The translations under genes and the position numbers were made by a program. Below are positions 1 through 62,942 of a stretch of 64,000 bases of DNA, one piece after another; the stretch's first letter is position 1, and the number at the start of each line of letters is the position of its first letter. The stretch comes from a virus, in the IMG/VR virus record IMGVR_UViG_3300027708_002747, positions 1-64,000 of that record. The stretch is one strand, 5' to 3'. The notes beneath the pieces were generated by a model. It worked only from the letters and a program-made list of their open reading frames with translations, did not search any database and was not told where the DNA came from.

Positions 1-339
1 TTTGTTTTTATCTTTAACAGTTTCTTTAATTACTTTAAATGCTTCTTCGGTGTATCTATCGTCATCATCGGCAAACATAATAAAATCACCTTCTAATGAG
101 TTAATATTTTCATTAATTAATGGATGCCCGTATTTCCACTTTTGTTCCCCTTGATTTAATATGTGATTAATTTTGAATTTAAACTCATATCTTGATAATA
201 CTTCTGAGACAAATTCGTGATTAATATCAGATATTATTGTAAAAATATCTGTTGGGTCTAATTGGTCTTTGAACGACTCAATCAATCTTGGTAGGGTTTC
301 TCTACCAATAGAAGTACAAACAATATTGAGACTAAACAT
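1..339 (-). CDS. Glycosyltransferase family 2-like, partial (C-terminus outside window)
   Basis: The 113 visible residues start at an ATG (337-339) that overlaps the end of the upstream gene by eight bases. They begin SLNIVCTSIGRETLPRLI, the usual first strand and helix of a GT-A fold, and near the window edge contain FADDDDRYTEEAF, an acidic nucleotide-sugar/metal-binding (DxD-type) segment. The protein probably transfers a sugar from a nucleotide sugar in the cytoplasm; the acceptor is unknown. It is the last visible gene of a minus-strand glycan operon. The family call is fairly safe, the specificity is not. Confidence 0.7.
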   Translation of the reverse strand, partial: MFSLNIVCTSIGRETLPRLIESFKDQLDPTDIFTIISDINHEFVSEVLSRYEFKFKINHILNQGEQKWKYGHPLINENINSLEGDFIMFADDDDRYTEEAFKVIKETVKDKNK

Positions 340-1186
340 AACACTTCTCCTTTACATATTTTGTCTCGTCATAAATGTTTAAAATGTCTAAAAACGCCTT
401 TTGTAAATCTAACCAATCACCAAACTCAAATGCGTAACATTCATCTAAATGTCTACCTGTAAGGACTGTAAGAACCTCTTGTTCACTAATAAGTTGATTA
501 TGTGTTTCTAAATAACTTGTAAAAATGTTTAAATATCCGTCTAAAACATGTCTAACTTTTTCTGACGTTCCACCAAATAGACATCCAGGAACAACTTTTA
601 ATTCAACACCAAATAGGTTATTAAATTTTGCAACCGTTTCATAATTCATAACAATTGAGTTACCTTTTAAATGTATAAACCCATGTTGGTTTATCTTATC
701 AACCACCTTATCCAAAAAGTTTTTTGAGTTAATTAACGGAGCCATATAATCTCTCCATCCATCGTGGCATGAAGTTCCAATCAATCCGGCATCAATCCAA
801 AAGATATTATCACAATCGTGTGACTCATCAATTAAGAATTTAAGTTTATTTAATACAACTTCTAAATAATTGTTAACACAATAAATTCTATCGTAATTAA
901 TTCCACCCGACAATTCTTGTGTTCTAATTTTATCAATCAACTCACAAGTGTTAGAAGTATTTAATTCTTTAAATTTGAACTCAACATTTGGAAAATTAAA
1001 TTCATTTTTTAAATTAAATTTATCATATGAATTTTGGTCTGTATAAATTACATATTGATATTCAGGATAAATTATATTTTTAATCGTTGCAACCAATAGT
1101 GGAAAATTTTTATATCTTTCACTGTTAATTCCTTCAACATATTTTAATTCGTAAATTGCTGAGATTACTTTAGTACCATTTGTCAT
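332..1186 (-). CDS. HtrL/YibB-like putative glycosyltransferase
   Basis: A 284-residue protein opening with KVISAIYELKYVEGIN and carrying NIFWIDAGLIG near residues 128-138. Both resemble HtrL/YibB/WlaTC proteins, which sit in LPS and capsule loci and are thought to be glycosyltransferases. The aspartate of WIDAG would be the metal or nucleotide-sugar ligand. The gene overlaps both neighbours (about 17 nt with 1170-1880, 8 nt with the next gene), so it is translationally coupled in the operon. No signal peptide or membrane helix is visible. The family assignment is from memory of motifs only. Confidence 0.55.
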   Translation of the reverse strand: MTNGTKVISAIYELKYVEGINSERYKNFPLLVATIKNIIYPEYQYVIYTDQNSYDKFNLKNEFNFPNVEFKFKELNTSNTCELIDKIRTQELSGGINYDRIYCVNNYLEVVLNKLKFLIDESHDCDNIFWIDAGLIGTSCHDGWRDYMAPLINSKNFLDKVVDKINQHGFIHLKGNSIVMNYETVAKFNNLFGVELKVVPGCLFGGTSEKVRHVLDGYLNIFTSYLETHNQLISEQEVLTVLTGRHLDECYAFEFGDWLDLQKAFLDILNIYDETKYVKEKCYV

Positions 1187-1880
1187 GTTCGGCGTAAATA
1201 ATGTTTAAAGATTTATTTGAATTATTTCCAAGCTCTATCCCATTATAAAGTGCTGAAAAACACATTTCGTCGATATTACCTGCGGGTATATTTCGTAACC
1301 CGTCATTTTTTTTATGTTCAATACATTTATCCCATGTATCCAAAAATTGAATAAATTTATCTTTTTCAATATCCAAATACTGAATACAATCCTCAGTCAT
1401 AATACCCAATTTTTCCTTGTCAGTTACAAAATCAAAAACATTTTCATAATGTAATAATCGTCTACCTAACTCACTATTAGATTGGATTTGTTCTAAAAAA
1501 TTATAGGTAACAGGCCCTGAAACTGAATTTTCAATAAATGAATTTAATATATTTTCCTCGTTAAATAATGAAGGGTTAACCCTCATATCAGCATCTACCA
1601 ATATAACTTTGGTAAATCCTAACCTAACCGAAGCTCTAACCGCATATCGTTTAACTGAAAAATCAAAATCATAATAGTTTTTTTGATAATCAAGATAATG
1701 TGAGTTAAATTCATTAACATTAAATGTTTTTACAAAATCTTTCTTTGTTATCATCTTCTCATTATCAGTTAAAACAACCAATGAAGGTTGATAAGGTAAT
1801 AATGATATATCATCAATAAATCGGTTTACTTGTCCGTAGTAACGTTCACCGAAACAAAATGTTGCAAATGTAAAACTCAT
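1170..1880 (-). CDS. GT-A type glycosyltransferase-like protein
   Basis: A 236-residue protein. FTKVILVDADMRVNPSLF (around residues 89-106) looks like the hydrophobic strand plus DxD motif of GT-A enzymes of the GT8/WlaTC kind. The N-terminus SFTFATFCFGERYYGQVNRF resembles proteins that take up a nucleotide sugar at strand 1. The conserved PAGNIDEMCFSALYN near the C-terminus may be the acceptor-side region. It lies two bases downstream of the 1883-3127 gene and overlaps the next one. The exact family was not recognised and the substrate is unknown. Confidence 0.5.
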   Translation of the reverse strand: MSFTFATFCFGERYYGQVNRFIDDISLLPYQPSLVVLTDNEKMITKKDFVKTFNVNEFNSHYLDYQKNYYDFDFSVKRYAVRASVRLGFTKVILVDADMRVNPSLFNEENILNSFIENSVSGPVTYNFLEQIQSNSELGRRLLHYENVFDFVTDKEKLGIMTEDCIQYLDIEKDKFIQFLDTWDKCIEHKKNDGLRNIPAGNIDEMCFSALYNGIELGNNSNKSLNIIYAEHDKWY

Positions 1881-1882
1881 AA

Positions 1883-3127
1883 TTATAAATTTCCTGTTAT
1901 TCTCTCACACCAATCTTTTGACTCCGAATGTGGCCAAACCACCCAATATTTTGGTTTTGAATCTGTTAAGAACTCTCTCCAAACTTTACAATATTTATCA
2001 GGGTCATTCATCATCATTTGAATTTCATTTTTATCAGCATCTTGTCTGTAAATGGTTTCATCTTTTTCATTATGAAACGCAACAACCCAAAAGTCGTAAT
2101 CTTTTTCAGGAACTTGTGTAAAACCAATATCAATACAGTGTTTAAAAACAGATGTAAATGATTTTAACCATTCCTCCTCTGAGTTGAAGTCATATGGATT
2201 GGGTGGATAACCTTTATCTAATGTATATTGTTGAACGGCTCTTTTTGAAAATAAAAGTCCTGAGTACTTTTCATAATCTTTTAAACTTCTAACCTTACCA
2301 AAACCATACTTACCGTGATTCATATTTTCTTCGTCATCCATACTAAATAAAGAACGATTTTTTTTATGAGCAAAATTATTTTTATCTACCCACTGTGAGT
2401 CATCATCCCACTGTTTGACACGTCCCTTTCTTGTGTATTCATGCCAAATCAAAACTTTATGAGGATGAAATAAATCATACCCATGAGTATAAGCTCTTGC
2501 AGCAATTGATATTTCCTCACCATGAAAATAAAACTCAGGGTCGTGTTGAACTTCTTTAGCAAATTTTCCTAATGTAAAACAAAAGTGTGCGGAATAAAAT
2601 CTTGCCGTTACAGGTTCAGTTAAATTCTGCCATCCTGGAATTGTTTCAGGTAAAAAGAAAACAGCCCCTTCGGGAATAAATCTATCAAACGCCATTCTCC
2701 ATGGCTCCTGTGTTCTACTATTTGGGTCATTATCAGGGTCAAAAGATGATACATATCCTGTCAATAATGGTTTCTTATAACCCTTATTCTGTAAGTCCTT
2801 AACCATCTTAATCATCTCAACATCCCAATTGGGGGCAAACCTCATGTGTGAGTCAATTTGAAGGGTATACGATTCTTTGTCGTATACCTGTTGAATTTGA
2901 TTGCGAGCCCAACAAGCACCTTTTGACTCATTGTATGGGATATCTAAAACTCTAAATCTTTCATCACCTGAATATTCAGATAAGTCATCAAACTTATCAT
3001 CAGGGTGATATTGCCGAGCAATACCAAAAACCAAATTGTTTGGTTTTTTAGCATTTTCTAAAGCGGATTTAATTGTTGGAATTAATTGGGGGTCTCTATA
3101 TGACGCGATTTGAATGAAAATTTTCAT
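1883..3127 (-). CDS. GlcNAc-type glycosyltransferase (GT60/Skp1-Gnt1-like)
   Basis: A 414-residue protein. The motifs IFIQIASYRDPQLIPTI at the N-terminus, SKGACWARNQIQQVY and YTLQIDSHMRFAPNWD mid-domain, and FYFHGEEISIAARAYTHGYD further on are the hallmarks of the PF11397 family. That family contains the Skp1 hydroxyproline GlcNAc-transferase and related enzymes, known from eukaryotes, bacteria and large viruses. DSH would be the DxD-type metal site. A TTG two codons upstream (3133) is in frame, but the ATG at 3125-3127 is the better start. The acceptor here is unknown; virion glycan or host polysaccharide are both possible. Confidence 0.75.
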   Translation of the reverse strand: MKIFIQIASYRDPQLIPTIKSALENAKKPNNLVFGIARQYHPDDKFDDLSEYSGDERFRVLDIPYNESKGACWARNQIQQVYDKESYTLQIDSHMRFAPNWDVEMIKMVKDLQNKGYKKPLLTGYVSSFDPDNDPNSRTQEPWRMAFDRFIPEGAVFFLPETIPGWQNLTEPVTARFYSAHFCFTLGKFAKEVQHDPEFYFHGEEISIAARAYTHGYDLFHPHKVLIWHEYTRKGRVKQWDDDSQWVDKNNFAHKKNRSLFSMDDEENMNHGKYGFGKVRSLKDYEKYSGLLFSKRAVQQYTLDKGYPPNPYDFNSEEEWLKSFTSVFKHCIDIGFTQVPEKDYDFWVVAFHNEKDETIYRQDADKNEIQMMMNDPDKYCKVWREFLTDSKPKYWVVWPHSESKDWCERITGNL

Positions 3128-3161
3128 AATCAAATCTTAATTGAAAATTAAAAAATATAAA

Positions 3162-3605
3162 TTATTTTTTCTTTATTTTCACGTATTTGTACCACAATCT
3201 TTCGTGGACAAAATAAATAACGGGTTTTAATGTTAACTCACCGATACCTAATAAAGAAGACATTTCTAAAGATACTCCACAAGAAAGAGCAACTAATACA
3301 GTTGTTAACGTTCCGAGTAAACGGTAAGAAATTGTTTTTAAGATATGACGAAGAAGAACTGTTTCTTCTTTTACAGTTGTAACATAAGCAACATTATCTT
3401 TGACAACACAGTGACCTTCACAACTGATGTGCCATTTATATTCACCTAACTCGGGCATCCAATCTTTTGTCGTTGATGTATGACCATCGATAACAATCTC
3501 AGATACCAATATTTCATTACCATTTTCAATTAATCTCCATCTGTCTTCATCGGATGTTGATTTTACATTGAATCTAATTTGAAACTTTTTAATTTTGTCT
3601 TTCAT
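3162..3605 (-). CDS. DUF2061 membrane protein with an extra N-terminal domain
   Basis: A 147-residue protein in two parts. Residues 1-80 are soluble and beta-rich, with a VKSTSDEDRWRLIENG segment of unknown family. Residues 85-147 contain LLRHILKTISYRLLGTLTTV, two hydrophobic stretches and a closing YFVHERLWYKYV; this is the DUF2061 pattern (a membrane domain ending in HExxW). As I recall, DUF2061 proteins occur beside or fused to sulfate-activation enzymes, and here the gene lies directly downstream of a nucleotidyltransferase and an APS kinase, overlapping by four bases. It may help import or handle a substrate of that set; its biochemical role is unknown. Confidence 0.65.
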   Translation of the reverse strand: MKDKIKKFQIRFNVKSTSDEDRWRLIENGNEILVSEIVIDGHTSTTKDWMPELGEYKWHISCEGHCVVKDNVAYVTTVKEETVLLRHILKTISYRLLGTLTTVLVALSCGVSLEMSSLLGIGELTLKPVIYFVHERLWYKYVKIKKK

Positions 3606-4000
3606 AATTTCCCTTGAGCTCTTAATTCTTCTCTAATTTTAGTTGCGGAAATATCATGTATTTCTTGTGGTGGAACTCTTTCGATTATATTGTAACCAAC
3701 ACCTCTACCAAACTCAATAGAACAAATATCAGGAATAATCATAACTTTAACTTTATCTCCCATATCGGAGTAGTGATTTTCGATATTTGTTTTTACTTCT
3801 TCAGCACTATATGGATTTTTTTCGTCAGGTTGAATGTCTCTAATACAAATTAAAACATTTTTACCTTCATCCATTACTTGTTGAAACAACGATTGATGTC
3901 CTTTGTGTAAAGGTTGCCATCTACCTACAAACATAGCATATTGTCCGTCTTTTGCAGGTAGAGATGATTCTACGTGAATTTTTTTATCCCAGTTACTCAT
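3602..4000 (-). CDS. HxGH nucleotidyltransferase (cytidylyltransferase-like; NadM/ATP-sulfurylase-type role uncertain)
   Basis: A 132-residue protein. GRWQPLHKGHQSLF (about residues 26-39) gives the HxGH nucleotide-binding signature, and ISATKIREELR at the C-terminus is the matching ISxTxIR motif. Both closely resemble NMN adenylyltransferases of the NadM type. The gene overlaps the APS kinase by ATGA and precedes DUF2061, so an alternative is that it adenylylates sulfate or another small acceptor in the same pathway. The RNPxHxxH motif of true ATP sulfurylases is absent. The fold is near certain; the substrate is open. Confidence 0.75.
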   Translation of the reverse strand: MSNWDKKIHVESSLPAKDGQYAMFVGRWQPLHKGHQSLFQQVMDEGKNVLICIRDIQPDEKNPYSAEEVKTNIENHYSDMGDKVKVMIIPDICSIEFGRGVGYNIIERVPPQEIHDISATKIREELRAQGKL

Positions 4001-4425
4001 TTTCTATTAAAAGGTATTAAATTAAGACATTCGTCTATTGTTTTATTTGTTGTGTCAATATTAATAAAGTTTTCCGTTGGAACTTCATATTCTTTAACAA
4101 AATTTTGCTCTCTACCTCTAATTTCACTTGTATGAACATAAAGTTCACATACTTCATTAGTTTCTTTAAGTGAATCTCTCATACTTTTGTATGGTGCAAC
4201 TACCGAAATAACTACAGTAAATCCTTTATGGTCTAAAAAACGAGCCAAATCTAATACAGATTGGATGTTCTTTACTCTACCCTCAGCGGAGTAATCGAAG
4301 TTTTGAAATAGTTCTCTTAAACCATCTCCGTCAACATTAATACAAGTATCCGAGCACTTCTCAATAAGTGCGTTTGCTAATGTTGTTTTTCCAGCCCCTG
4401 GCTGACCTGTAAACCAATAAATCAT
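3997..4425 (-). CDS. cysC: Adenylylsulfate (APS) kinase, CysC-like
   Basis: A 142-residue P-loop kinase. FTGQPGAGKTTLANAL (residues 5-20) is the Walker A, NVDGDGLRELF follows as in CysC (LDGDxxR), and VVISVVAPYKSMRDSLKE matches the CysC (I/V)SPYxxxRD segment. It should phosphorylate APS to PAPS, the universal sulfate donor. It is shorter than bacterial CysC (about 200 residues) but retains the core. It overlaps a sulfotransferase upstream and a nucleotidyltransferase downstream by four bases each, which strongly suggests PAPS is made for local sulfotransfer. A kinase for a different adenylylated substrate is less likely. Confidence 0.75.
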   Translation of the reverse strand: MIYWFTGQPGAGKTTLANALIEKCSDTCINVDGDGLRELFQNFDYSAEGRVKNIQSVLDLARFLDHKGFTVVISVVAPYKSMRDSLKETNEVCELYVHTSEIRGREQNFVKEYEVPTENFINIDTTNKTIDECLNLIPFNRK

Positions 4426-5246
4426 ATGTTCTTTTGATAATTAAAAATTTCGTAAAACCACTGGTAATTATTATAAATCCAATCACTCACATCTTGTCCT
4501 AAAACTTTATTTGCCGATGATGGAGTAAGTTCCAAGCTCTTTCTAATAGTATGGTCACCAAACATACCATAAATCTCGTCATCTTCTTTGGTAACTTGTT
4601 CAATATTATCAAAATCGTGTTCAAAAAAGGGAATTTCTAAATAATTGTAAATCTTTAACATTGTTGCCTCAGGATACAAACATAAATCTTCATATCTAAT
4701 AAACAACATTTTTTCATTAATTCCTTGTCTAAAAACTTCACCCAATCGTTCAATTGCCATACCCACAGGTTGTGAGTTAGCCCAAACATCAACTCTCTTT
4801 GGTGTTGTTGTCCCTTTAAGTTCCGCATGATTGACGATACCCATATCTTTATACTGACTTTTACGAAAGTTCTTTTCCATAGAACAGAAAATATCACGTA
4901 AATCTCTTACCATACAAATAATTTTTGGTTCAGGGAATACTTCATTTAAAAAACCGTAATGAACTCCCCATCCTCTACTTTTATCAACAACATATTTTTT
5001 ATCTGTAATTGCGGTGAAGAAACCTTCAACACCTTTTTTACAAAAAGATAAGTAACCTTGTTTCATTAGTTCGGTGTCCTGTGCTTTAAATTCAGGTGAT
5101 GACGAATAATTTGCTCTCGCTCCATAGATTAATTCTAATACCCCACTTGTTGGTGTTGCGTAGACATCGGGATTTTGAGCTAAAATGTTTTGTAACATTG
5201 TGCTACCAGCTCTTGGTAGTGAACTTTGAAAGAATAATTTCTCCAT
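4422..5246 (-). CDS. PAPS-dependent sulfotransferase
   Basis: A 274-residue protein beginning LFFQSSLPRAGSTMLQNIL, which is the 5'-phosphosulfate loop (PRxGSTxL) of sulfotransferases. EPKIICMVRDLRDIFCSMEK (about residues 107-126) is the 3'-phosphate-binding motif with its RD and serine. The protein should move sulfate from PAPS to a hydroxyl or amino group, probably on a glycan. It is one gene upstream of the APS kinase in the same overlapping operon, so donor synthesis and use are encoded together. Length is typical of the family. The acceptor cannot be told from the sequence. Confidence 0.85.
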   Translation of the reverse strand: MEKLFFQSSLPRAGSTMLQNILAQNPDVYATPTSGVLELIYGARANYSSSPEFKAQDTELMKQGYLSFCKKGVEGFFTAITDKKYVVDKSRGWGVHYGFLNEVFPEPKIICMVRDLRDIFCSMEKNFRKSQYKDMGIVNHAELKGTTTPKRVDVWANSQPVGMAIERLGEVFRQGINEKMLFIRYEDLCLYPEATMLKIYNYLEIPFFEHDFDNIEQVTKEDDEIYGMFGDHTIRKSLELTPSSANKVLGQDVSDWIYNNYQWFYEIFNYQKNI

Positions 5247-5632
5247 TATATAATTGTTTTAATAAATTTCCAATAGTCGGGACCTCCATATGATGTGCAG
5301 ATTTCCTCGCCGATTTCAATATCACGATTTGACACGAAATAGTAAAGAGCTGAGTTAGAATCGCAAGTCCAAAAAGCATTATTATTTTCACTATGATTGT
5401 AGATACAACCATAACCTAAAGGAATTGCGAAATGTGTTGGATTTTGACCACAGGGATAAGAAAATCTATATTTTAAAAGAACATCATTTAAATCACCCAA
5501 ATCTGTCCTGAAAAAAATTACATAACAGGTTTCAATGATTTCATCTTTATTAATTTTTTCTTTAGCAAAAACACCCAATCCATGAATGTGAGATGCTTTT
5601 ATTTCTATCTTTTGTGGGATAGGTATATTCAT
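5246..5632 (-). CDS. SET-domain protein (putative lysine methyltransferase)
   Basis: A compact 128-residue SET domain. The N-terminal SHIHGLGVFAKEKINKDEII is the usual SET opening (GxGvfA). The pseudoknot motifs follow: GCIYNHSENNNAFW (NHS, AdoMet binding) around residues 74-87 and GEEICTSYGG (GEExxxxYG) near 109-118. No pre-SET or post-SET cysteines are visible. It should bind S-adenosylmethionine and methylate a lysine on an unknown protein. Its stop shares one base with the sulfotransferase start, so it belongs to the same operon. A non-catalytic role cannot be excluded. Confidence 0.8.
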   Translation of the reverse strand: MNIPIPQKIEIKASHIHGLGVFAKEKINKDEIIETCYVIFFRTDLGDLNDVLLKYRFSYPCGQNPTHFAIPLGYGCIYNHSENNNAFWTCDSNSALYYFVSNRDIEIGEEICTSYGGPDYWKFIKTII

Positions 5633-5633
5633 A

Positions 5634-6503
5634 TTAATCTTCTAAAGATTGTAATACATCCTCAACACTAAAAATTTCTTCTTCTGAGTTATATGGGAAT
5701 TCCATTGGTTCCCCTAAAATGTTAAACTGATTTAAATAAGATAATTTAAGTTCAGGTTTCTTTGTAAATTTGTTGTGAACAATATTTTTGTTAAGTCCAT
5801 AACCAAATACTTTTGGTGAGTTTGCAACCCACAATACTGTTGAGGACATTCCTAATGCTGATGCGGTATGTTGCGCAAAACTGTCCATGAATAATCTTTT
5901 TGAACTCATTGCGATAACTATTGATATCGCTCTAAAACTATCTGTCAACTGAACGGTATCTCTTAATGCCGGTTGGTCATCTCTTCTAATATGGAAGATG
6001 GTGTAAGCATATTTTAATTTATCAACAACTTGTTGTGCGATATTATGAGGAATATCTCTTGCCCAAGAATACTTCATATTTTGTTCAATACCACCATTGG
6101 TTTGAATTACCATAATTGGTTTGTCAGTAGTGTATTTTTTAGAATAAAATTGTTGTTCTCTTTCGGTGATGAAAATGTTTGTTTTTTCACCGTTGTATTC
6201 CAAATCAAACAACTTACACCAAGTTTGGATTACGTGTTCTTCACTTTTAAGATGTTCTGTATCAAGATACGGGTCGTGAGCGAATATTTTAAAGTCACCA
6301 TTTTCAATATAGTCTGAGTAGAAATATTTGTGTTCACCAAAGGCATATGCTCTGTCAACAAATGGGTTGTTTAAGAATACATCAGGATAACCTGATACAA
6401 CGATTAATTTTGATTCTGGGTATTTCTTTTTTAGGATTTCACAGATAGCGGTTCCCATCACACATTTACCAATACCTCCATTTATTTGAAAAATAATATT
6501 CAT
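5634..6503 (-). CDS. GT9-like (heptosyltransferase-type) glycosyltransferase
   Basis: A 289-residue protein. NIIFQINGGIGKCVMGTAIC at the N-terminus is the glycine-rich acceptor loop of GT9/ADP-heptose transferases. SYPDVFLNNPFVDRAY follows as the usual FL..NPyVD segment, and SFRAISIVIAMSSKRLFMDS with a downstream QHTASALG corresponds to the GT-B donor-side helix. It is the first gene of the minus-strand glycan operon, with one base to the SET gene. About 48 bases of AT-rich sequence separate it from 6552-8681; neither promoter type described elsewhere is visible there. The substrate is unknown. Confidence 0.65.
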   Translation of the reverse strand: MNIIFQINGGIGKCVMGTAICEILKKKYPESKLIVVSGYPDVFLNNPFVDRAYAFGEHKYFYSDYIENGDFKIFAHDPYLDTEHLKSEEHVIQTWCKLFDLEYNGEKTNIFITEREQQFYSKKYTTDKPIMVIQTNGGIEQNMKYSWARDIPHNIAQQVVDKLKYAYTIFHIRRDDQPALRDTVQLTDSFRAISIVIAMSSKRLFMDSFAQHTASALGMSSTVLWVANSPKVFGYGLNKNIVHNKFTKKPELKLSYLNQFNILGEPMEFPYNSEEEIFSVEDVLQSLED

Positions 6504-6551: not shown

Positions 6552-8681
6552 TCAGAGTTGAAATAAAAAAGTTTGGTCTAAACCTGAAAAATAAAAATAA
6601 AAATTATTTGAACAACAATTAGTCAATTGTGATGTTGTTGCGGAATATGGGAATGTTCCACCTGATGTTACATGATATCGTGGGTTCATTGAGTCAACAT
6701 AATAATATAAATCAAATGTATATGCCGATAAATTTGTAGATGTAAAAGAAAGAGTTGTACCACTTTGAGTTCCAATAATGTCATCAATAATTACATCACT
6801 ACAATCAGGACATCCGTAATCAAAAAGTAAAAACGGATTTTTTAAGATATCAAAATTGTGTATAACTTCAGGATAACTTAATGGTTCAGTATACATTCTA
6901 AATTGAGAAATCGCCCCGTCAAAAGAACCTCCAAATGTCGGTTCAATTAAAATATTTGTGGTTAATGCCGACAGTGATGTCCCCGATAATGTTTGATTTG
7001 GCATAACCTCAGGGTCTTGGATATAAGTTAAACCTGTTAAAGATGTTGGACATCCTGAAAAAGTTAAACTCTCTCTTAATCCTTGTGTTCCACCACCCCA
7101 AGAAATATTAAAAGGAACCCCTAATTGTTTTTCTTTTTCGGTATTTAACGCTCTTGGAATAACTTCTTCAAACCCATTAATAACATAAAATAATCTTCCG
7201 TTAACATAAATCTTTAAAACACCCAATCTGTCTTCTCTTTCAATTAACCATCTCTCATTAAGATTAACAATTTCCACTTGTTCTGCAGGAGCCGAACCCT
7301 CATGTGTAATTGGTGGTTGAATAAGTAATATACTATTATTTGACAAACTATCAACATACTCGGTATCACTAATCAACCCTAACCCACCTCTGTAATATAA
7401 ATCACAAGTATCATAGTAAGTGTTTCGTTCCCATACACAGTCAATTAAAAACCAATGTTCTTTATTTAAATAAAGAGGGTTATCCGTTGAACAATAATTA
7501 AAAATTGTATTGGATGAACAATATTCTGTAATCGTATACCCTGTTTGATACGTAATACCTGTCGTTGCACAAGTACCCGTTGTTACACAACCTCCAGTAA
7601 AAGTTAAAACTTTAACACAAACTTTTGGATTGGCAGGGTCTCCTGATAATCTTAATGAAAACGAATTAGACATTGAGTCATACAACGGGTCTTTGTCGTT
7701 ATTTGGAACATTTGTTGTTGCATTACATCCACAATCACAAGTTGTATTGTGTTGAGCAGTATAAACTAAAGGTTCATAAACTTCAACACATCTTGAATTA
7801 GTAACACCTGTATTTGAACATGCACACGTTTGTAAACAACCTTCTAAAACACTTGTAACTCTTGTGTATCCACTATCAGAGTCAGGTGAACCTGAGGCGT
7901 GATGATAAAACTTATTTTCAGCTCTTGACCCAAAGTAAAAAAAAGTATTTTCATTTTTAGGATATGTTAAGTTTAATGTTGTTTGAGCAGATGTTGGTAT
8001 GTATTGGTCTTTCTGTCTTGCTCTTAATAACATTTCAACAGTCCAACCTTCGTTTGTTCTATTTGGAAATGTTTCATAGTCATAACCAAATAACTTAAAA
8101 AATCCCTGATAAAACCCGCCATATAGTTGATTATATACACCAATAGTATTACCTGTTTTTGTTACAATATTATAAACCGTTTCTTTTGTATTTCCTGAAA
8201 ATCTTTCATTAGGTGGATTGGTATATCCTGTAATATTAATTAATTTTTGTCTTCTATCGTAATAATACCTATTCCATTTACTACTACCTGTAAACAAACC
8301 CATAGTATAATTAATTGTCTCACCAGTCATTTGTGGTACCAAACCGTTATCTACGCCTGTTAAACCAATATCACATAACGTTGAAGCGGTTAAACAATTT
8401 AAATCTTGATTGAGTGGATTATAATAATTTAATGAAACTAAAGTATTACCTGATAAAAAATTACCATAGTTAATTGATAGTCTTTGTGATGATAAAGGAT
8501 TATTTAAATCAAAATAAATAGGTAATCTATCACCATCATTATAACCAATAAGATTTGTTGAAAATACAACCTCTTCGTTATAATCCCTTTCGTCAGACGC
8601 AAGAGAAATATCAAAAATCTTACGAACAGGTTTAATGTACCACTTATTAAAATTATATTGATTTATATTCTGTTGTGCCAT
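6552..8681 (-). CDS. Large lectin-like virion/tail-fibre candidate (LamG-type fold)
   Basis: A 709-residue protein rich in Thr, Asn, Tyr and Cys. It has paired cysteines (CLQTCACSNTGV, TTCDCGCNATT, YGCPDCSD) and two regions like concanavalin/LamG sandwiches, including LKIYVNGRLFYVINGFEEV and GSFDGAISQFRMYTEPLSYPEVIHNFD. The latter is typical of the end of a LamG domain. The protein lacks a signal peptide. It resembles phage fibre or surface-adhesion proteins and stands alone, divergent from the 8729 operon, with its own TATTTAT element seven bases before the ATG. A role in binding host glycans is inferred. Confidence 0.5.
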   Translation of the reverse strand: MAQQNINQYNFNKWYIKPVRKIFDISLASDERDYNEEVVFSTNLIGYNDGDRLPIYFDLNNPLSSQRLSINYGNFLSGNTLVSLNYYNPLNQDLNCLTASTLCDIGLTGVDNGLVPQMTGETINYTMGLFTGSSKWNRYYYDRRQKLINITGYTNPPNERFSGNTKETVYNIVTKTGNTIGVYNQLYGGFYQGFFKLFGYDYETFPNRTNEGWTVEMLLRARQKDQYIPTSAQTTLNLTYPKNENTFFYFGSRAENKFYHHASGSPDSDSGYTRVTSVLEGCLQTCACSNTGVTNSRCVEVYEPLVYTAQHNTTCDCGCNATTNVPNNDKDPLYDSMSNSFSLRLSGDPANPKVCVKVLTFTGGCVTTGTCATTGITYQTGYTITEYCSSNTIFNYCSTDNPLYLNKEHWFLIDCVWERNTYYDTCDLYYRGGLGLISDTEYVDSLSNNSILLIQPPITHEGSAPAEQVEIVNLNERWLIEREDRLGVLKIYVNGRLFYVINGFEEVIPRALNTEKEKQLGVPFNISWGGGTQGLRESLTFSGCPTSLTGLTYIQDPEVMPNQTLSGTSLSALTTNILIEPTFGGSFDGAISQFRMYTEPLSYPEVIHNFDILKNPFLLFDYGCPDCSDVIIDDIIGTQSGTTLSFTSTNLSAYTFDLYYYVDSMNPRYHVTSGGTFPYSATTSQLTNCCSNNFYFYFSGLDQTFLFQL

Positions 8682-11379: not shown

Positions 11380-12594
11380 ATGAAAGAAAAAATTAAAGTT
11401 TTAGTCATACCTTCTGACACAACGGGTGTTGGTAGATTTAGGTCAATTACTCCACACACTCATTTACAAGCAAAATATGGTGATGATTTTCATGTTGATA
11501 TTGAGTTTAATCCAAATTTAAACGATTTAAATTTTTTTAAAAATTATCAAATTGTCCATTTCCACCGTTCATTAGGACAAGACATGGATTTATCCATTCA
11601 GGTAATCCCAATTTTAAATGCCATGGGTATTATAACAATTGCCGATATTGATGATTATTGGTTGCCAGGAAAAGAACATCCACTTCATCAATTAATTATC
11701 CAAGAAAAAATACACGAAAAGATTGTTAATAATTTAAAACTTGCGAAATACGTTACAACAACAACTGAAATATTTGCAGATGAAATTCGTAAGTTTAACA
11801 AGAATGTTGTAATTTTACCTAACGCAATTGACCATAAGGAAGGTCAGTTTAATGAACCAACCGAAGAATCTGATTTAGTTAGAGTTGGTTGGTTAGGTGG
11901 CTCATCTCACTTACATGATTTAATGTTACTTGATGGTATGGTTTCAAAACTATCTGATATTAAAGATAAATTACAATATGTAGTTTGTGGATTTGATACT
12001 CGTGGTATGATGACCGAAATTAATCAACAAACTGGTGAAAGAACACAAAGACCAATCAAACCACACGAAACAGTATGGTATGACTATGAGAAGATTTTCA
12101 CAAATAACTATTCAATTATTTCACCTGAATATAAAAATCATTTGGAATTATTTGTTGAGACACCATTTGAAAATGAAAAGAACTTACCATATCGTAGAGT
12201 ATGGACAAAACCTGTTACATCTTACGCACGTAACTACTCAAAATTTGACATATCTTTGGCACCGATTAAGCAACACATGTTTAACAAGGTAAAATCACAA
12301 CTTAAAGTTATTGAGGCAGGTTTTTATAAAAAAGCATTAATTGCAACCAATTATGGTCCTTATACCATTGATTTAAAACACGCAATGAAAAATGGTGAGT
12401 TTACTGATGGAAACGCATTACTAGTTGAAGACGCAAGAAACCATAGTGATTGGGCGAAATATATTAAGAAATTAGTTCAAAACCCAAACATGAGAATTGA
12501 TATGGGTGAAAGATTATATGAACACGTTTCACAACGATACAGTTTAGATGTGGTTACAAAAACAAGAGCAGAATTTTATAAATCAATAGTATGA
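11380..12594 (+). CDS. GT-B glycosyltransferase (GT4-like)
   Basis: A 404-residue protein with two Rossmann-like halves. The N-terminal half starts KIKVLVIPSDTTGVGRFR and includes YQIVHFHRSLGQ and ITIADIDDYWLPG. The C-terminal half includes VRVGWLGGSSHLHDL and KSQLKVIEAGFYKKALIATNYG, which holds the usual K...E-x-G donor-binding region, and ends with NPNMRIDMGERLYEHV, typical of GT4 enzymes. It should transfer a sugar from a nucleotide donor in the cytosol. It is the first gene of the long plus-strand glycan operon and overlaps the next gene by ATGA. Confidence 0.75.
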   Translation: MKEKIKVLVIPSDTTGVGRFRSITPHTHLQAKYGDDFHVDIEFNPNLNDLNFFKNYQIVHFHRSLGQDMDLSIQVIPILNAMGIITIADIDDYWLPGKEHPLHQLIIQEKIHEKIVNNLKLAKYVTTTTEIFADEIRKFNKNVVILPNAIDHKEGQFNEPTEESDLVRVGWLGGSSHLHDLMLLDGMVSKLSDIKDKLQYVVCGFDTRGMMTEINQQTGERTQRPIKPHETVWYDYEKIFTNNYSIISPEYKNHLELFVETPFENEKNLPYRRVWTKPVTSYARNYSKFDISLAPIKQHMFNKVKSQLKVIEAGFYKKALIATNYGPYTIDLKHAMKNGEFTDGNALLVEDARNHSDWAKYIKKLVQNPNMRIDMGERLYEHVSQRYSLDVVTKTRAEFYKSIV

Positions 12595-62547: not shown

Positions 62548-62942
62548 GGGGATGTTTTTGGATTTGACAGGTATGAATCTGTCATAAAACGCACGTCGGG
62601 GCTAAACTAACCCTGTAAAACTGGTTTAAAACACAAACGGCAACACAATTGCAAAACTTTCTACACTCGGTTTAATCCGTACTGAAGAAGTAACTGTAGC
62701 CTAATCTAAGATTAGTATACAACGGGGTCGGTGAGCATATAACCTTGCAACAGAAGCTTGTACCGTGGTGTGGTTTCTATCCGAAAAGGAACAAAGTGGA
62801 GGATTAGTTCTCAGTAAACCGAACCACTATAAAATAAGGGAATTGTGAAGTTTCGGATTGTTTAGAAAAACAATGACCTAAACGTGTAGTGTTTTATGGT
62901 CGACATATTTGGACCGGCGTTCGAGTCGCCGCATCTCCACCA
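62548..62942 (+). ncRNA. ssrA: Transfer-messenger RNA (tmRNA)
   Basis: A one-piece tmRNA of about 395 nt. The 5' end GGGGATG pairs with CATCTCC (62932-62938), followed by A and an encoded CCA. The 5' start continues TTTTTGGATTTGACAGG, conserved in tmRNAs. The T-arm is CGGCG-TTCGAGT-CGCCG near 62915-62931. The likely resume codon is GGC at 62639, preceded by AAAC. The frame gives a 21-residue tag starting GNTIAK and ending EEVTVA, with stop TAA at 62702-62704 inside a CTAATC/GATTAG stem (H5). It rescues stalled ribosomes with SmpB and tags the product for proteolysis. A terminator follows at once. Confidence 0.93.

Follow-up and report, generated by a model that had tools for sequence, protein, structure and literature searches.

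A probable minimal PAPS synthase with a NadM-like nucleotidyltransferase as candidate third-class ATP sulfurylase, linked to a phage sulfotransferase

In the literature covered, only two types of ATP sulfurylase, Sat and CysDN, are named for sulfate activation (PMC6286981), and roles have been assigned to the motifs of Sat (PMC3779200). M. tuberculosis CysC binds APS through D480, R483, F492 and R497 (PMC4373884). In phages, 62 cysC genes were already known and were interpreted as assimilatory (PMC10914622), and sulfotransferases of cyanophages and OM43 phages had been found earlier, their function being termed unclear (PMC10580990). In the literature covered, which excluded most subscription journals, we found no earlier report of a new ATP sulfurylase or of phage sulfation, and none assigning ATP sulfurylase function to the nucleotidyltransferase described below. 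The locus described here quite probably encodes, judging from sequence comparisons, a minimal PAPS synthase whose nucleotidyltransferase (NTase) is a third-class ATP sulfurylase and which feeds a phage sulfotransferase within a glycan-building operon.

The window, i.e., the whole stretch of 64,000 nucleotides that was analyzed, corresponds to positions 1–64,000 of an 84,681-bp virus record containing tailed-phage genes for a head protein (phrog_138), a portal (phrog_213) and a terminase (phrog_2). A tmRNA gene was also detected at 62548–62942 (+) (Rfam RF00023, 126 bits), for which ARAGORN gave the tag AKLSTLGLIRTEEVTVA, whose end is unusual. The genes at and around the locus are as follows:

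332..1186 (-), probable glycosyltransferase-like protein, ORF without family match
1170..1880 (-), probable GT-A-like protein, ORF with no family above cut-off
1883..3133 (-), GlcNAc-transferase family protein, downstream of the cassette (PF11397, 1.4e-68; phrog_24687 glycosyltransferase, 7.4e-168)
3162..3605 (-), DUF2061 protein, 147 aa, C-terminal membrane domain (PF09834, 5e-12, residues 88–138)
3602..4000 (-), NadM-like HxGH NTase, 132 aa, proposed minimal sulfate adenylyltransferase (PF01467, 1.8e-6)
3997..4425 (-), short-lid APS-kinase homolog, 142 aa (PF01583, 1.3e-17)
4422..5246 (-), sulfotransferase, 274 aa (PF13469, 1.3e-20; PF00685, 5.5e-13; phrog_27463, 9e-40)
5246..5632 (-), SET-domain protein, first gene in the coupled series (PF00856, 3.3e-12)
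5634..6503 (-), probable glycosyltransferase, GT9-like by eye (phrog_8954 only, 5.7e-6)
6552..8681 (-), Cys-rich protein, 709 aa, directly upstream (Laminin_G_3, 0.034, below cut-off)

Positions 3162–5246 are the exact span of four minus-strand ORFs, encoding the sulfotransferase, the kinase, the NTase and the DUF2061 protein, with a 4-nt overlap at each junction. These coordinates agree with the initial annotation, which had proposed four consecutive coupled genes, and all four products scored above curated Pfam cut-offs (Sulfotransfer_3, APS_kinase, CTP_transf_like and DUF2061). The SET-domain ORF overlaps the start of the sulfotransferase gene by 1 nt, and the coupled run therefore exceeds four genes. 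This gene, whose product is a methyltransferase, is kept at the same place in the closest relatives (L001, L004, L007 and L009).

The sulfotransferase matched the PF13469 family profile, and both of the PAPS-binding motifs claimed for it were located, i.e., the 5'-phosphosulfate loop LPRAGST (residues 10–16) and the 3'-phosphate motif VRDLRDIFCSMEKN (residues 113–126); in addition, RYEDL is found at residues 184–188. The kinase was confirmed as a CysC-like homolog of APS kinases. It scored 64.7 bits against PF01583 (cut-off 21.1), contains a P-loop and a DGDxxR motif, and gave an AlphaFold model (pLDDT 93.7) whose best PDB folds were APS kinases (7yq1, TM 0.83; 1m7g; 8a8h), APS-bound ones among them, in agreement with the sequence profiles. 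Four residues invariant in a 40-row alignment (D34, R37, Y45 and R50) correspond, by hand mapping, to the four main APS-contacting residues of M. tuberculosis CysC. The score against the NCBIfam equivalog TIGR00455 was 73.5 bits, below the cut-off of 138.7. The lid was shortened to RGRE...Y/F..P and lacked the KGLYKKA/FTG stretch of the full CysC lid, which may explain this score. In loci L011–L015, the ORF of the short-lid kinase has a fused C-terminal HAD-type phosphatase domain (PF25109, 1e-5), for which a PAP phosphatase and a PNKP-like terminus are both conceivable. The kinase was present in hundreds of IMG/VR stretches, and 62 phage cysC genes had been listed before (PMC10914622), so that the initial description of sulfated virion or host-surface glycans as rare in phages was too strong. 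Searches of cultured phages yielded only 8 weak matches for the kinase and 10 for the sulfotransferase, every one from Synechococcus phages or marine single-cell viruses, and no isolate carrying the cassette was found among the phages so matched.

The NTase had been described as a NadM-like enzyme with an HxGH motif, and its motifs, profile matches and nearest structures all supported this view. It contains GRWQPLHKGH, which conforms to the GRxQPxHxGH motif of NadM, and ISATKIR. Its closest relatives are NadM enzymes, whose profiles matched at 1e-9 and which are also the nearest solved structures. Scores were below the curated NadM cut-offs (PRK01153, 36.7 versus 127 bits; TIGR01527, 31.6 versus 181.2 bits). 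The distance between PDI and ISxTxIR was ~25 residues, compared to ~50 in the M. thermoautotrophicus NMNAT, so that a large part of the region facing NMN is lacking. In 126 phage and cellular NTase copies, G26, R27, H32, G34, H35, G98, R99, G102, Y103, S118, T120 and R123 were invariant and R54 nearly so, a conservation that for the motif residues is partly due to selection of these copies by their core motifs. We also considered membership in the Sat family, which was ruled out: the Sat profile PF01747 gave 13.7 bits (cut-off 24.3), the Sat motifs QxRNPxHxxH and GRD were missing, and hhalign aligned the NTase with Sat only at ISxTxxR. No Sat homolog was detected in the 84.7-kb record.

Linkage was counted for neighbors within 2.5 kb, using phage loci with at least 2 kb of sequence on either side. 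An NTase gene was found near all 65 kinases and a kinase gene near all 57 NTases, and DUF2061 genes accompanied 62 of the 65 kinases (95%) and 44 of the 57 NTases (77%). Co-occurrence in related phages had been set beforehand as a test of the cassette, and these counts bear it out. Counted from DUF2061, an NTase was nearby in 49 of 55 loci, but a kinase in just 30 of 55. In a set of 80 IMG/VR loci retrieved with the kinase, an NTase was present in 79 and DUF2061 in 70, and gene order was nearly constant (kinase, NTase, DUF2061). PHROG_10255 matched kinase and NTase alike, implying that both enzymes occur fused in one protein. A single fixed cassette for every copy, which we also considered, was weakened by a group of freshwater phages (among them L266–L275), in which NTase and DUF2061 genes lie beside peptide-deformylase- and sigma-factor-like genes. 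Here, 31 of the loci retrieved with DUF2061 showed no kinase in their flanking sequence, which extended to 5 kb at most.

We searched 84,980 species genomes and identified 71 cellular NTase loci, some of which resemble phage contigs binned into genomes (e.g., L128), others being located on long contigs. In nearly all of them, a CysC-like kinase adjoins or is fused to the NTase, and this kinase can be a canonical CysC scoring above cut-off (e.g., L113, L126, L131 and L147). For example, the NTase adjoins canonical CysC in Flavobacteriales and is fused with it in Planctomycetota and Woesearchaeota (L131 and L147), the fusions being seen in either domain order. CysQ-like and sulfotransferase genes occurred near the NTase in several cellular loci. 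In one marine bacteroidote, cysC and the NTase gene are separated by a second NTase-like ORF (L111:7596–7991). A phylogenetic tree of NTases, based on 107 columns and with many weak forks, was split into a mainly cellular clade, mostly partnered by canonical CysC, and a clade of phages and Marinimicrobia, whose partners are mostly the short-lid kinase. In phage locus L010, an NTase of the mainly cellular clade is located beside a short-lid kinase, and this exchange of partners suggests that both kinase types take the same product.

The distribution of these genes followed a replacement pattern. In 198 genomes of Flavobacteriales (the order of L113), 84 had CysC above cut-off; 78 of these had CysD and no NTase, and the six without CysD all had an NTase beside CysC (Fisher test, 2.5e-9, which ignores phylogeny, the six CysD-less genomes being probably related). 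In CysD-containing Flavobacteriales, cysC commonly adjoins cysD-cysN, and the NTase therefore occupies the place of cysD-cysN. In the order of L126, 146 of 199 genomes had CysC, with CysD in 134, Sat without CysD in 9, only the NTase in 1 and none of these in 2. Taken together, the 230 genomes with canonical CysC in both orders comprised 212 with CysD, 9 with only Sat, 7 with only the NTase and 2 with none. Across 50 NTase-containing genomes, Sat was found in 6, CysD or a CysD-like protein in 7 and neither in 38; most of these genomes are drafts, which limits all absence calls. The earlier suggestion that the NTase may stand in for ATP sulfurylase thus gained strong independent support from its cellular gene context and from the replacement of CysD and Sat by an NTase beside CysC, both read from genome sequences.

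DUF2061 was also connected with these genes. The phage protein scored 46.5 bits against PF09834 (cut-off 23.1). Its annotation as a DUF2061 membrane protein holds for the C-terminal part (residues 88–138) and not for the remainder, which has no counterpart in Pfam. This N-terminal segment comprises 87 residues (3344–3605 (-)), and many relatives consist of DUF2061 alone. DUF2061 adjoins cysC in two bacterial cys operons, and DUF2061-CysC fusions lie next to the NTase in Chitinophagaceae. These associations connect DUF2061, a small membrane protein, with the activation of sulfate.

The NTase, the kinase and DUF2061 would together form a minimal PAPS-making unit. In the first step, the NTase would adenylylate sulfate with ATP, yielding APS and pyrophosphate; it would thus be a third ATP sulfurylase class, with its origin in the NadM branch of the HxGH nucleotidyltransferases. 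The short-lid kinase is then predicted from strong homology to phosphorylate the 3'-OH of APS, giving PAPS, and the sulfotransferase, again on strong homology, to transfer sulfate from PAPS to an acceptor. Finally, we infer that sulfate is most likely transferred to a glycan, which the glycosyltransferases of the phage itself would make and which may be carried by a virion protein.

The genomic context of the cassette is consistent with such an acceptor. The neighboring glycan transferases noted in the initial annotation are present, and a large sugar island is located at 11380–31809 (+), which includes GT1, GT2, GT11 (twice), GT17, GT25 and GT92 families, fucosyltransferase-like genes, and genes for GDP-mannose 4,6-dehydratase, an RmlD-like protein, an aminotransferase and methyltransferases. 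Of 80 loci, 24 have a homolog of the GT9-like gene next to the cassette. Virion genes are close to the cassette in several loci, such as a spike-type protein gene (L065) or those for tail sheath and tube (L073), and the 709-aa Cys-rich protein of the window is a candidate virion adhesin and a possible acceptor. The most frequent additional neighbor of the phage kinase/NTase pair was a sulfotransferase, and in 21 of 32 phage loci retrieved with the sulfotransferase and having at least 2 kb of flank on each side, the kinase was within 2.5 kb of it. Loci lacking the window-type enzyme often have another sulfotransferase-like gene, one of which is a clear Sulfotransfer_2; in the LPRCAST group, matches to sulfotransferases were weak and the assignment is suggestive. 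PAPS made by the same three steps might instead serve a different acceptor, such as a tyrosine of a host or virion protein, a lipid or a small molecule. The breadth of the sulfotransferase family and the variation in sulfotransferase types among loci would fit this option, but the location of the gene between the GT9-like and PF11397 GlcNAc-transferase genes, with a glycosylation island nearby, makes it rather unlikely, and a glycan is preferred.

Activation of a small group other than sulfate appears improbable. CysC homologs with other substrates do exist, e.g., C. jejuni Cj1415, whose substrate in phosphoramidate synthesis is a CDP-amidate. The phage kinase, given its short lid, could likewise phosphorylate a different nucleotide made by the NTase. 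However, the NTase family partners canonical, above-cut-off CysC and replaces CysDN in cells, follows CysH in Nitrospiraceae and has a sulfotransferase as its commonest further neighbor in phages.

A slightly weaker candidate still is that these are auxiliary metabolic genes raising assimilatory sulfate reduction, and with it the cysteine supply, in the host. Phage cysC was interpreted in this way in PMC10914622. In Nitrospiraceae, an operon (L095, 4689–8468; L102) consists of an Rrf2-like regulator, a sulfite/nitrite reductase-like gene and CysH, followed by the NTase; Sat is encoded elsewhere in these genomes. However, CysH was missing in 37 of the 38 mostly draft NTase genomes without Sat and CysD, which indicates sulfation rather than reduction, and the phage partner is a sulfotransferase within glycan or tail-gene regions. 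An NAD salvage pair, with the NTase as NMN adenylyltransferase and the kinase as nicotinamide riboside kinase, would resemble NadR, which is a kinase-NTase fusion, and would suit the NadM profile matches and nearest structures noted above, but it was rejected as very improbable because the kinase has the profiles and fold of APS kinase and not of riboside kinase, the NMN side of the NTase is largely missing given the halved PDI-ISxTxIR distance, NadD above cut-off is encoded in 37 of the 50 NTase genomes, and the gene context is CysC, CysH, CysQ and sulfotransferase.

Several observations count against sulfate activation by the NTase and kinase: the absence of Sat motifs from the NTase, the score of the kinase below the TIGR00455 cut-off and its short lid, the kinase-less freshwater phages, and the Sat or CysD-like genes in some NTase genomes. 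With these considered, it seems likely, at somewhat lower confidence than for the proposed reading of the locus itself, that the ~115-residue NTase core, shared by many phages and several bacterial and archaeal phyla, represents a third ATP sulfurylase class non-orthologous to Sat and CysDN, that it forms with the short-lid kinase the smallest PAPS-making unit known, and that phages sulfate glycans which they build themselves. If so, this class would supply the missing step in organisms that have APS kinase yet apparently cannot activate sulfate, among them Marinimicrobia and marine Flavobacteriales. Phage cysC would be recast from sulfur assimilation to a sulfation pathway, phage sulfotransferases would gain a function, and the NTase core would be remarkably small for an enzyme catalyzing so difficult a reaction.

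Compared to known systems, the locus combines familiar parts in a different way. Phage cysC genes and the sulfotransferases of cyanophages and OM43 phages were known beforehand as single genes, and the NTase and the linked cassette are undescribed in the accessible portions of PMC10914622 and PMC10580990; the NTase function and the linked cassette appear to be new. The phage kinase shares fold, P-loop, DGDxxR and Arg/aromatic APS contacts with APS kinases (7yq1, 8a8h and 2ofw), but differs in its shortened lid and its score below the NCBIfam equivalog cut-off. The NTase has the same GRxQPxHxGH and ISxTxxR motifs and first-half fold as NadM and archaeal NMN adenylyltransferases (2qjo, 4yp7 and 1ej2), but its acceptor-side stretch is about half as long, its gene context is different, and it possesses an invariant SxxxGRxVGY and the nearly invariant R54. 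In Flavobacteriales, the NTase has the same operon position relative to cysC as CysDN in the CysDN-CysC complex and a complementary distribution, but its system lacks a GTPase subunit and the CysD (PP-loop) fold. Finally, like Sat-CysC and PAPS synthases (PAPSS1/2; Aquifex 2gks), the phage pair couples or fuses an HxxH-superfamily adenylyltransferase to an APS kinase, with PAPS as the proposed product; unlike in those enzymes, the adenylyltransferase is not Sat but NadM-like, and about one third the size.
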